Source: Humisphaera borealis (GTDB lineage Bacteria > Planctomycetota > Phycisphaerae > Tepidisphaerales > Tepidisphaeraceae). From it: a stretch of 64,000 nucleotides of DNA. The stretch spans positions 1,674,001-1,738,000 of the forward strand of contig NZ_CP063458.1 of assembly GCF_015169395.1 (NCBI RefSeq), given 5' to 3'. Both the position numbers and the translations under genes were made by a program. The notes under the pieces are model-generated. The model was not told where the DNA came from. It did no database searches and was given only the letters and a program-made list of their open reading frames with translations. This document shows, piece after piece, positions 49,779 through 55,282 of the stretch. The first letter of the stretch is position 1. The number at the start of each line of letters is the position of its first letter.

Positions 49779-49886
49779 TTGCGTGAATGAGTGCCGCAGC
49801 GACGCCTCCAGTTTAGCCCAAACACTCAGAAATCCTCGCCGGCGGCAATCGTACCGCCGTTTTACGCCTTAACGCGATTCTCAAAA

Positions 49887-49916
49887 CTGTCACGGCGGCG
49901 TCGACGTTTGTATAAT
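49887..49916 (+). promoter_or_regulatory. Promoter of typA
   Basis: CTGTCA (49887-49892; four of six bases match TTGACA), an 18-base spacer and a perfect TATAAT (49911-49916) lie 106 bases before the ATG at 50022 and 148 before the one at 50064. Confidence 0.6.
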
Positions 49917-50063
49917 GACGCTCCAGCGGGTACATTGCCCCGCTTCCCGGCCTTCAGCCGGGCCGGCTGGGGTCACCCGCCGTGGACGCTAAGTCACAAT
50001 ATTCCAACGGGTTGGATCAAGATGCTCACGGAGAACGCCGGGGGCAAGGACGAGACTGTTGTC

Positions 50064-51923
50064 ATGAATCAGGTTCGGAACGACATCCGTAACGTCGCGA
50101 TTATCGCACACGTCGACCATGGTAAAACCACCCTGGTTGACGCCCTCCTGCGCCAAAGTGGTAACTTTCGCGACAATCAGGTGCAGGACACCATGCTCGA
50201 CTCCAACCCCCTGGAGCGCGAGCGCGGCATTACGATCCTGGCGAAGAACGTCGCGATCAACTACACCGATCCGCTCACCAACCAGATCATCAAGATCAAC
50301 CTGATCGACACCCCGGGACACGCCGACTTCGGTGGCGAAGTTGAACGCGTTCTGAGCATGGCCGACGGCGTGTTCGTTCTTGTGGACGCTGCCGAAGGTC
50401 CCATGCCGCAGACCCGTTTCGTGCTGAAGAAGGCCTTCCAGCACGAACTGCGTCCGATCGTTGTCGTCAACAAGATCGACCGACCCGACGCCCGCATTGA
50501 CGCGGTCGTCAATGAGGTGTTCGACCTGTTCGTCGAACTCGGCGCCGACGACGAGACCCTCGACTTCCCGATCATCTACGCCTCCGGCCGCGCCGGCATC
50601 GCGTCGTGGAAGGCCGACGTCAAGGGCACCGATATCAAGCCGATCTTCGAAGCCATCCTGAAGCACATCCCCGCGCCGCACGGCGATAAGGACAAGTCGC
50701 TTCAGATCCAGGTTTCGAGCATCCAGTACAACGACTACGTCGGCCGGATTGGCATTGGCCGCATTTACAACGGCGTGATCAAGAGCGGTCAGCAGGTCAC
50801 GGTCGTCAAGCGGGACGGCACGCAGGTGAAGTCGAAGATGCAGCAGTTGCAGGTGTTCGACGGTTTCGGCCGCAAGAACGCCGACGACGCCGCCGCCGGC
50901 GACATCGTGGCGCTGATCGGCCTGGAATCGGTCGACATCGGCGACAGCATCTGTGATCCGCTCAAGCCCGAGCCGCTGGAAGCGACCGAGATCGAGCCGC
51001 CGACGCTGGTCATGATGTTCAGCGTGAACGACAGCCCGTTCGCCGGCCGCGAAGGCAAGTACGTCACCAGCCGTAACCTGCGCGAACGGCTGATGAAGGA
51101 ACTGGAAAGCAACGTCGCTCTGAAGGTCGAAGAGACCGATGCCAAGGACGCGTTTAAGGTGTCCGGCCGCGGCCTGCTGCACCTGGGCATCCTGATCGAG
51201 AACATGCGCCGCGAAGGCTATGAACTGAGCATCAGCAAGCCCCAGGTTATCATGCACAAGGACAAAGAGACCGGCGCGATCACCGAGCCGATCGAGTACC
51301 TGGTCGTCGACGTGCCCGAAAAGAGCATGGGCGGCGTCATGGAACTGGTCGGCAACCGCAAGGGCGAACTGGTCCGCATGGACAACCGCGACGGCCAGGT
51401 CCACCTGGAGTTCACCATTCCCGCCCGCGGCCTGATCGGCCTTCGGACGCGCATGCTCACCGCCACCCAGGGCACGGCGATCATGCACCATAACTTCCAC
51501 GAGTACGCCCCGGCCCGCGGCGAAGTGCCCGGCCGCGCCAACGGCGTGATGATCAGCATGTCCAACGGCAGCGTAAACGCATTCGCGCTGAACAACCTGC
51601 AGCAGCGCGGCACGATGTTCGTCGAGCCGACCCAGGAAGTGTACGAAGGCATGATTGTCGCCGAGAACGCCCGCGACAATGACATGCCCGTCAACCCGAC
51701 GACGGCCAAGAAGCTGACGAACATGCGGACGACCAGCAGCGATGAAAACATCATCCTCAAGCCAGCCCGCAAGATGACGCTCGAACAGGCCCTGGAATAC
51801 ATCGAGGAAGACGAGCTCGTCGAAGCCACGCCGCAGAACATCCGCCTGCGGAAGCAGCTTCTTACGGAAACCGCCCGCAAGAAAGCCGGCCGGAGCCGGG
51901 CGACGGAGCCGATGGAGGTCTGA
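50064..51923 (+). CDS. typA: Ribosome-associated GTPase TypA/BipA
   Basis: The start is placed at the ATG at 50064 ([20 protein letters not shown]), giving 619 residues; an earlier ATG at 50022 is in frame. GTPase motifs: G1 [11 protein letters not shown]2 [13 protein letters not shown]3 [12 protein letters not shown]4 [10 protein letters not shown] and G5 YASGRAG. Domains II, III and V follow ([36 protein letters not shown]) and the BipA-specific C-terminal end ([20 protein letters not shown]). It is a translational GTPase of the EF-G type that assists ribosome assembly and growth under stress. Length matches the family (about 605-615). Confidence 0.97.
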
Positions 51924-51931
51924 TCGGCGTC

Positions 51932-53101
51932 ATGTCGTTCCTGTTCGTCTATGGCACACTGATACCCGGCCACGCACCCTCGTGCGTGGCCGATCTCGTT
52001 GCACGGTTCCGTGTCGTAGCGCCGGCCGTCGTGCGAGGCACGCTTTACGATTTGGACAACTACCCGGGCTTGGTGCTTACCGGCGATCGTGACGTTCGTG
52101 GCTTTCTCTGCGAGGTTCCGAACGATGCCCTGTTCTGGCGACGGCTGGATACCTATGAGGGATTCGATCCGTCGTCGCCCGCCGCAAGCCTGTTTTGCCG
52201 TGTATCGGCCGTGGCCACGTGCGCCGATGGAACGCGGGCCGAATGCCAGACGTACGTGTACAATCACCCCGTCAGCCCGATGCGTACGATCGATGGCGGT
52301 GATTGGCTGAACCATCAATCGCGGCGTGCCGCGCGTTCTTCGGGCCGTGCGTCCGACACTGGCGATTCTGAGCATCCCATGAAACGTCCGGTCATCGGCA
52401 TCACCATCGACTCACGCGACGACAAGCCGTCTCGATATGAGATCCCCTCGGACTATGCCCGTAGTGTAGAACGGGCCGGCGGGCTCCCGGTCATGTTGCC
52501 GTTCCGCGCCGAACTATCGCTGATTCCTGAACTACTCGACATCCTCGACGGCATCGTCCTCATCGGCGGAAACGATCTGGATCCCGCGCTCTACGGCGAA
52601 ACCTGGCACCCCAAAACAGAACGTCTTGACGCCCAGCGGCAGACCTTCGAACTCGCGCTGATTGCGGAGGTCGAACGCCGAAAGCTTCCGGCACTGGGTA
52701 TCTGCCTGGGGTCGCAGGTCATGAACGTTCATCGAGGCGGATCGCTGCATCAGTTTCTGCCGGATTTCCCCCGAGAAGGAGCAATCGAGCACCGATCGCT
52801 CGGGAACGACAGCTATCGGCATCCGGTGCAGATTGAGCCCGGAACCATGCTCGAAGAGATCGTGGGAACCGGTTCGATCATCGCGAACAGCCGCCACAAG
52901 CAGGGCGTGAACCGATTGGGACGAGGATTGCGAGTCAACGCCACTGCCCCGGACGGAGTCATCGAAGGGTTTGAAGACCCGAGCCTTCCGTTCTTCGTCG
53001 CGATCCAATGGCACCCTGAGAATCTGACCGCAACCGACCCGGCGCACCTCAGGATTTTCGAGCGGTTGGTGAGCGTCGCGCGATCCCGCGTAGCCACCTG
53101 A
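51932..53101 (+). CDS. Fusion of gamma-glutamylcyclotransferase-like and class I glutamine amidotransferase (PuuD-like) domains
   Basis: The 389-residue protein begins 9 bases after the typA stop. Residues 1-115 form an AIG2/YtfP-type domain: FLFVYGTLIPGH is the typical P-loop-like substrate site and the catalytic Glu is in DTYEGFDP. A Ser/Arg-rich linker of about 30 residues follows. Residues 150-388 form a peptidase C26 / gamma-glutamyl-GABA hydrolase domain: MKRPVIGITIDSR, VLIGGNDLDPALYG, the nucleophile Cys in GICLGSQVMNVH, and His plus Glu in AIQWHPEN. Both domains act on gamma-glutamyl bonds. The inner ATG at 52380 lacks a ribosome binding site, so a single chain is likely. A role in glutathione-type or polyamine breakdown is inferred. 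Confidence 0.87.
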   Translation: MSFLFVYGTLIPGHAPSCVADLVARFRVVAPAVVRGTLYDLDNYPGLVLTGDRDVRGFLCEVPNDALFWRRLDTYEGFDPSSPAASLFCRVSAVATCADGTRAECQTYVYNHPVSPMRTIDGGDWLNHQSRRAARSSGRASDTGDSEHPMKRPVIGITIDSRDDKPSRYEIPSDYARSVERAGGLPVMLPFRAELSLIPELLDILDGIVLIGGNDLDPALYGETWHPKTERLDAQRQTFELALIAEVERRKLPALGICLGSQVMNVHRGGSLHQFLPDFPREGAIEHRSLGNDSYRHPVQIEPGTMLEEIVGTGSIIANSRHKQGVNRLGRGLRVNATAPDGVIEGFEDPSLPFFVAIQWHPENLTATDPAHLRIFERLVSVARSRVAT

Positions 53102-53179
53102 GGTGACCGAGCTGAAGCCGAGCACGATCTGATCGGCCTTGATGCTGTCCGACGCGCATTTGCTCTCGACCGAACTCCC

Positions 53180-54253
53180 GTGAGAAGAATCCTCCTGCTC
53201 ATCACGGACCTCGAGATCGGCGGCACGCCGACCGTCGTGCGTGAGTTGGCACTGCGTCTGCGCGATCCCTCGCACGTCGAGATTGAAGTCGCGTGCCTCT
53301 CGAAATGGGGTCCCGTCGCGGATCAGCTTCGCGACGCGGGTGTGAGAGTGACTGCGCTGGGCGCAGGATCGCCGCTCGACTTTCTCCGCACGCTGTTTCG
53401 GCTGGTCCGGCTGATCCGCGAAGGGAACTTTGACACCGTTTTCAGTTTCCTGATCCACGCCAACGCGATGGCGACCGCGGCCGCGCCATTCTGCCCCGAA
53501 GTGCGCTTCCTCCAGTCCATTCAAACCACACAGCCCGAGCCTCGCTGGCACTGGTGGCTGCAACGGCTGATTCAGCACGCCGCAGCAAAGGTGGTCGTAC
53601 CATCGCCATCGGCGGCGGAGGTGGCAAAGGGTTGGGCGGGCGTGGCACGGGAGCGAGCGGTGGTAATTTCGAATGCGGTGGACATCGAGTCATTCAATGA
53701 GATCTACGCCGGCAACGCCGCTCGGCAGGCACAAACGCCTCGACGTGTGGGATTCATAGGCCGGCTCGATCCGATCAAGCGCGTTCCCGACCTGGTTATG
53801 GCGATGTCTCATCAGCCGTCTGGCCGTCTCGACATCTACGGCGAGGGCGTCGATCGACCGGCCATCGAAGCTGCGGTGCGCCGATGGGGTCTGCAGGATC
53901 GAGTGAAGCTTCACGGTGCCATCACCCGGCCGCATGAGGCGCTGGCAACAATGGACGTGCTGGTGCTGCCGTCAAAAGCCGAAGGGTTTGGGCTGGTTCT
54001 GATTGAAGCCATGGCCGCAGGCGTGCCTGTCATTGGCGCGGACGTTCCCGGGATTCGGGACGTGATTCGGCACCTCGATACCGGCCTGCTTCTGGAAGAC
54101 GTCAGCCCCATGCAGTTCGTGCAGGCGATCGTGACGGCAACCCACACCGTTCTTCGAGCCAGCCTGATCAGCAACGCCCGTGCCGAAGTCGAGCGTCAGT
54201 TCTCCTGGCCGGCAGTCTTGCCCAGGTATCGCGAACTGCTCGGACTTCGATGA
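53180..54253 (+). CDS. Glycosyltransferase family 4 (GT-B)
   Basis: The start is GTG 53180, giving 357 residues. The N-terminal Rossmann half opens with RRILLLITDLEIGGTPTVVR, in which GGT is the donor-contact loop. The C-terminal half has GFIGRLDPIKRVPDLVMAM, then a LDIYGEGVDRPAIEA strand and the donor-binding LVLPSKAEGFGLVLIEAMAA (E-x7-E), all typical for GT4. It transfers a sugar from a nucleotide donor to an acceptor, possibly in envelope polysaccharide or lipid. It is followed on the opposite strand by an LpxL-like acyltransferase, in keeping with envelope synthesis. Confidence 0.88.
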   Translation: MRRILLLITDLEIGGTPTVVRELALRLRDPSHVEIEVACLSKWGPVADQLRDAGVRVTALGAGSPLDFLRTLFRLVRLIREGNFDTVFSFLIHANAMATAAAPFCPEVRFLQSIQTTQPEPRWHWWLQRLIQHAAAKVVVPSPSAAEVAKGWAGVARERAVVISNAVDIESFNEIYAGNAARQAQTPRRVGFIGRLDPIKRVPDLVMAMSHQPSGRLDIYGEGVDRPAIEAAVRRWGLQDRVKLHGAITRPHEALATMDVLVLPSKAEGFGLVLIEAMAAGVPVIGADVPGIRDVIRHLDTGLLLEDVSPMQFVQAIVTATHTVLRASLISNARAEVERQFSWPAVLPRYRELLGLR

Positions 54254-54286
54254 ACAACGGCCACAACTGCGCTTCCAATGCGGTGC

Positions 54287-55282
54287 CTAATCAAACCGTT
54301 CCGGTTCTTCCCCCTTCGGTCGCGTCTTCCATCGCCGATGGACCCAGAGGTACTGCCCCGGCTCCTCGCGCACGAAGTCTTCAATTCCCTTCGTGTACCG
54401 CTGGGTGATGTAACGCAGCGGGTCGTCCTGTGACTTCCAGTCGGCGGGGTAGATGATGTCCTGAACGCCGACGTCGAAGAGAAACTTCCCGTCGATTCGC
54501 CTGGCGTAGCCGATGACCACGGGCAGTTCGTATTCCATCGCCAGCAGGCCGATGGATTTGTAGGTGCTCGCCTTGCGGCCGAAGAAGTCGACGAACATGC
54601 CCTTTGGCCCGGCGTTCTGGTCGGCGATGAAGCCGACGGTGCCGCCCTCATCGAGGATCGGGCCGACCTCCGTCGTCGCGCCCTTCTTATCGACGATGCG
54701 CTGACCCATTCGCTCGCGAAATCCCAGCAGCCATTCGTTGATGTGGGGGTTGTCCAGCGGGCGGGCGACGCTGGTGGTTTCAAAGCCGAGCGTCGCCAAG
54801 GTGTAACCCAGAATCTCCCAGTTGCCGTAGTGGCCGGTCAGCATGACCAGGCCCTTGTGCCGCACGAGCAGATTCAGGACCTCCTGAAAATCGTTCAAGC
54901 GGATGTAGCGGTGCCAGGTATCCAGCCGAATCAGCCGGGGCGTGAAAATGACTTCCACGCCCAGCATCGGGAACCCCTGCATGCTGATACGGCCCAGGCG
55001 GTTGTATTCCTTCTCGGTCCAGCCTGGAAAACTCCTCCGCAGATTGCCGAGAATGCGCTCGCGATGTCGGCGGTTCACCCTGTACCAGAAGCTGCCCAGC
55101 AGCCGGGCGGTCGCCATGTTCAGGTTGACGGGAAAGCAGAGCAGCGCCGTGGCGACCAGGCGCAACGCGACGTACTGAAGGTAGTCCGAAATGACGTTCC
55201 GCGGTTTGGCTGCCACTGGGGCGGGGATTGTAGTGGGCGATCGCCTCTCTGGAAACGCAGAGCTTCTGCTCCAACAGTTCAC
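54287..55282 (-). CDS. Lipid A biosynthesis acyltransferase family (LpxL/HtrB-like)
   Basis: The 331-residue frame starts at GTG 55282; GTG 55216 (MAAKPRNVISDYLQ) is an equally possible start. A membrane-anchoring helix comes first (YVALRLVATALLCFPVNL). The acyltransferase HX4E motif is intact in MLTGHYGNWEILGYTL, and further conserved blocks are VGFIADQNAGPKGMFVDFFG and YELPVVIGYARRIDGK, ending with QYLWVHRRWKTRPKG. In Gram-negative bacteria this family adds secondary acyl chains to lipid A at the inner membrane. It supports an outer membrane in this organism, and is convergent with a glycosyltransferase. Confidence 0.9.
   Translation of the reverse strand: MNCWSRSSAFPERRSPTTIPAPVAAKPRNVISDYLQYVALRLVATALLCFPVNLNMATARLLGSFWYRVNRRHRERILGNLRRSFPGWTEKEYNRLGRISMQGFPMLGVEVIFTPRLIRLDTWHRYIRLNDFQEVLNLLVRHKGLVMLTGHYGNWEILGYTLATLGFETTSVARPLDNPHINEWLLGFRERMGQRIVDKKGATTEVGPILDEGGTVGFIADQNAGPKGMFVDFFGRKASTYKSIGLLAMEYELPVVIGYARRIDGKFLFDVGVQDIIYPADWKSQDDPLRYITQRYTKGIEDFVREEPGQYLWVHRRWKTRPKGEEPERFD

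Follow-up and report, generated by a model that had tools for sequence, protein, structure and literature searches.

The window, by which we mean the whole stretch of 64,000 nucleotides of Humisphaera borealis DNA that was analysed, contains a gene that runs as one open frame from ATG to TGA and encodes a gamma-glutamyl cyclotransferase (GGCT) domain and a Peptidase C26 domain, with no stop codon between the two (Table 1). The typA/bipA gene ends 8 nt before its start, and typA lies near the C26 gene in many genomes of the bacterial family; the gene order typA, C26, GT4 glycosyltransferase and lauroyl-type acyltransferase recurs across that family. Positions 49791-55282 of the window hold typA, the C26 gene, the GT4 glycosyltransferase gene and a lipid A-type acyltransferase gene, which occur together in several family genomes.

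Table 1. Position of the fused gene, its parts and its neighbours within the window
Feature	Coordinates	Strand	Basis
typA/bipA, upstream neighbour	49791..51923	+	TIGR01394, 894 bits
Fused gene, 389 aa: GGACT-like domain, linker and Peptidase C26 domain	51932..53101	+	Open frame; Pfam; same fusion in congener
GGACT/AIG2-like gamma-glutamyl cyclotransferase domain, residues 4-126	51941..52309	+	PF06094; AF2 model
Y7-G8-T9-L10, substrate-binding loop motif	51950..51961	+	Alignments; same residues in mouse/human enzyme
Glu76, putative general base, counterpart of GGACT Glu82	52157..52159	+	Alignment; motif equivalence
Linker, residues 127-149, unconserved	52310..52378	+	Amino acid identity to congener 0.21
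Peptidase C26 domain (class I glutamine amidotransferase-like hydrolase), residues 150-389	52379..53098	+	PF07722
Internal ATG, possible second start	52379..52381	+	Start position of stand-alone C26 relatives; Met kept in congener
Cys258, putative nucleophile	52703..52705	+	Invariant in alignment (C109 there)
His361-Pro-Glu363, remainder of putative catalytic triad	53012..53020	+	H212 and E214 invariant in alignment
GT4 glycosyltransferase, downstream neighbour	53180..54253	+	Pfam; conserved synteny

Two domains with conserved active-site residues

The N-terminal domain matches the GGACT profile (PF06094) over residues 4-126 with an E-value of 5.9e-18 and a score of 66 bits (cut-off 22.8). In the mouse and human enzyme, Tyr7, Gly8, Thr9, Leu10, and Glu82 are listed as catalytic-site residues (PMC2954230), and both the YGTL loop and the catalytic Glu of the GGACT/AIG2-like family are found in the fused protein. 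The loop is invariant in one GGCT alignment and nearly invariant in another of 20 GGCT rows, across which Glu76 is likewise nearly invariant; the equivalence of Glu76 to Glu82 is drawn from the motif rather than from a residue-level structural alignment. The AF2 model of this domain has pLDDT values mostly above 90 and shows the GGACT fold, superposing on human GGACT (3jud) with a Z-score of 13.5 and a deviation of 2.2 Å over 121 residues. The domain thus resembles GGACT/A2LD1 and E. coli YtfP in fold, loop, and Glu; those proteins are stand-alone enzymes, whereas here the domain is the N-terminal half of a fusion. In Planctomycetota, two proteins encoded at L131:853-1866 and L136:832-1863 each carry tandem cyclotransferase-like regions (AIG2_2 followed by GGACT) within one open frame.

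The second half matches Peptidase_C26 (PF07722) over residues 153-363 (E 1e-58; score 199 bits, cut-off 20.5), and its putative Cys-His-Glu triad (Cys258, His361, and Glu363) is invariant in ten relatives. Among its best PDB sequence matches are P. aeruginosa SpuA and E. coli PuuD, to the latter of which it is 33% identical, sharing the Cys-His-Glu residues and an NSxHxQ motif. Both of those enzymes are stand-alone, however, and the fused C26 domain scores 109 bits against the cut-off of 266 for the PuuD equivalog NF008471, so that the description "PuuD-like" in an earlier note on this DNA is apt as a superfamily name but not as a statement of equivalence. The AF2 model of this half is poor because the alignment used was shallow (pLDDT mostly below 65; Z-scores of 4-5 to 3fij, 7d50, and 6vtv), and its assignment to C26 rests on sequence. 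The earlier note had described a single chain uniting an AIG2-like domain that bears a catalytic Glu with a class I amidotransferase domain that bears Cys, His, and Glu; this is borne out by the open frame, the Pfam matches, and the conserved motifs, and the two families joined are, as it had stated, both active on gamma-glutamyl amides.

Integrity and origin of the join

The host genome is a single contig of 7.19 Mb. A congener, the MAG Phycisphaerales bacterium RYN_430 (G001), carries the same in-frame fusion, with 62% identity over residues 2-384 and no internal stop. This separate MAG is the sole other genome of the genus that was compared, and the fusion is thus seen in two genomes, one of them a MAG that is 65% complete. 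In either genome, a ribosome that sets out from the GGCT start meets no stop until the end of the C26 domain. A local sequencing error or frameshift is ruled out, because the congener shares a stop-free fusion of identical layout. Between the two genomes, dN/dS is about 0.26 in the GGCT part and 0.21 in the C26 part, and purifying selection acts on both; amino acid identity is 0.66 and 0.63 in the domains and 0.21 in the linker, where a length difference of 12 nt preserves the frame. When the linker is shuffled, it remains open with a probability of 0.59 for the window and 0.89 for the congener, and an open linker is by itself weak evidence of fusion; the evidence is the shared frame together with two conserved, constrained domains.

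G011 (RYN_433), from a different genus of this family, encodes GGCT and C26 in two distinct genes that share an ATGA overlap and are read in different frames. Upstream of this separate GGCT gene lies not typA but a short frame on the minus strand (L055:8343-8560) that resembles, by eye, a ParD-type antitoxin. A GGCT gene directly upstream of the C26 gene is found in three genomes only (the host, its congener, and G011), and none of the other family genomes examined shows a GGCT next to its C26 gene. Although GGCT relatives of the fused-protein type are present in at least 13 of 397 genomes of the class and at least 52 of 392 genomes of the phylum, none of the class and phylum GGCT loci checked has a C26 gene nearby beyond the three named genomes; the C26 model used at these loci recovers E. 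coli PuuD with an E-value of 2e-45 and is thus sensitive enough. No further fusion was found among the matches listed in the 397 class genomes, in roughly 1.5 kb surrounding the highest-scoring GGCT matches listed in the 392 phylum genomes, at 37 GGCT loci of other bacteria (GTDB genomes), in a scan of genome contigs with the fused protein as query, or in a search of viral contigs, and no plasmid match covers 80% of the fused query. The earlier note had named separate domains in all relatives, combined with a frameshift or missing stop, as the outcome that would speak against its reading; beyond the genus, every relative does keep the two domains apart, but a local frameshift fails as an explanation, since the congener shares the join.

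This distribution is most simply read as a GGCT gene having settled just upstream of a C26 gene, with the two fusing later in this genus; the gene has the appearance of a fusion between neighbours that is specific to the genus. The C26 tree places G011 apart from the fused pair and is weakly supported at many inner nodes, and the GGCT-C26 adjacency may have arisen once or more than once. That two in-frame neighbours simply lost the stop between them was considered and set aside: the frames differ in G011, and if that arrangement is ancestral, a change of frame would also have been needed.

Host metabolism, proposed function, and alternatives

A GCS2-type glutamate-cysteine ligase (PF04107) was found in none of 26 family genomes, and GshA (PF04262) in none of the three GGCT-C26 genomes. 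The glutathione-like thiol that had been suggested as a substrate is weakened as a candidate, since searches of the host for both families of glutamate-cysteine ligase came back empty; the glutathione synthesis that would accompany a ChaC-like glutathione-degrading role is not seen there, which weighs against glutathione, although imported glutathione could still serve. The classic putrescine (Puu) pathway is weakened as well, since a query with PuuA (gamma-glutamylputrescine synthetase) is answered in the host solely by a protein that reads as GlnA. PxpA was not found in the host, and recycling of 5-oxoproline via PxpABC was rejected on this ground. All three GGCT-C26 genomes encode a protein of the Hydantoinase_B family (5-oxoprolinase-type), which could recycle 5-oxoproline or may instead belong to a hydantoinase.

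Elsewhere in the host genome, an Amidoligase_2 gene and a second Peptidase C26 gene share a 46-nt overlap (L064:7427-9375; about 4507426-4509374 of G000:C1), and equivalents of this pair are found in the congener (contig C618) and in genome G021 (contig C15). The pair fits the published amidoligase neighbourhoods (PMC2588565), in which the ligase is accompanied by either a GAT-like thiol peptidase or an Aig2 cyclotransferase. The same two families that are fused here thus recur beside one ligase family, but in those neighbourhoods they are alternatives, encoded by separate genes in different bacteria, whereas here they form one chain and no ligase lies alongside.

Gene fusions indicate functional links. 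On balance, we lean towards a bifunctional salvage enzyme, created by a genus-specific gene fusion, in which two sites would process related gamma-glutamyl amides in parallel. Its gene would have arisen from two neighbours, probably co-transcribed, whose fusion yields one protein with two intact active sites, each predicted to cleave gamma-glutamyl bonds. The N-terminal domain would convert an N-terminal gamma-glutamyl group into 5-oxoproline by cyclisation, freeing the amine or peptide, while the C26 domain at the C-terminus, with its putative Cys-His-Glu triad, would split a gamma-glutamyl amide by hydrolysis into glutamate and an amine. Tethered by a flexible linker, the domains would work side by side on related gamma-glutamyl amines or peptides, in salvage or clean-up, rather than in consecutive steps; we infer the activities, the substrates, and the parallel action alike.

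A two-step breakdown, as the earlier note had it, is not supported: cyclotransferase and hydrolase make alternative cuts at a single kind of gamma-glutamyl bond, so that action in parallel is no less likely. To our knowledge, 5-oxoproline, the lactam product, is not a C26 substrate. For the steps to be consecutive, the substrate would have to carry two gamma-glutamyl bonds, or the specificity would have to be odd. In such a scheme, one domain would trim a gamma-glutamyl compound and pass its product on, as when a doubly or poly-gamma-glutamylated amine loses one bond to hydrolysis and its remaining gamma-glutamyl group to cyclisation; both domains do belong to families that target gamma-glutamyl bonds, and the host Amidoligase_2 beside the second C26 protein is a possible source of such amides. 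No substrate with two gamma-glutamyl bonds is known here, however, and no glutamate-cysteine ligase or PuuA was detected in the host; the amidoligase lies away from the fused gene, was not found in G011 (86% complete), and is present in G021, whose C26 gene lacks a GGCT neighbour. We therefore regard this scheme as unlikely. A further reading, in which the cyclotransferase and hydrolase sites of one chain dismantle a doubly or poly-gamma-glutamylated metabolite of the Phycisphaerae that is neither glutathione nor gamma-glutamylputrescine and possibly stems from the host amidoligase, is a long shot. Only a little more credible is a reading in which the GGCT-fold part is an accessory domain, or one of altered specificity, instead of a second gamma-glutamyl enzyme. 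AIG2-like domains can be fused to other amidohydrolases, and the N-domain model also matches a region of K. lactis allophanate hydrolase/urea amidolyase (PDB 4ist, 5i8i; Z 12-12.5), in which a GGCT-fold domain is joined to an amide-cleaving protein. In those enzymes, however, the amidase is of a different family and the domain order is reversed, and the intact YGTL loop and Glu76, together with the purifying selection on the domain, argue against an accessory role.

That neighbours merged by chance, with little or no benefit from their physical linkage, would agree with an unconserved linker, with the ease with which chance yields short open linkers, and with the confinement of the fusion to one genus. 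Against this, the frame has been kept in both genomes despite near-complete turnover of the linker and the 12 nt difference, and both domains are constrained; an accidental join is a possibility that we consider improbable, but deserving of weight. Comparable doubt attaches to a dual output, which would be compatible with a bifunctional salvage enzyme: besides the fused protein, a free C26 hydrolase, like that of the other family members, would be made from the internal ATG at 52379. The Met at this position, where single-gene relatives start, is kept in the congener while the surrounding linker is not, but a single conserved Met is weak evidence, and no strong Shine-Dalgarno sequence precedes the internal ATG in the window or the congener.

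The fused architecture is unusual, is built of two well-known families, and is confined so far to one genus; the earlier note knew of no described case, and a literature search, partial in coverage, likewise gave no paper joining both families. The reach of the finding is small, being limited to one genus and two known families. The fused and the ATGA-overlapping versions nevertheless offer a clean pair for studying how coupled genes merge. Because the fusion occurs in bacteria in which no known glutathione or putrescine route was detected, the tie between cyclotransferase and C26 hydrolase hints at an unrecognised gamma-glutamyl metabolism in the Phycisphaerae.
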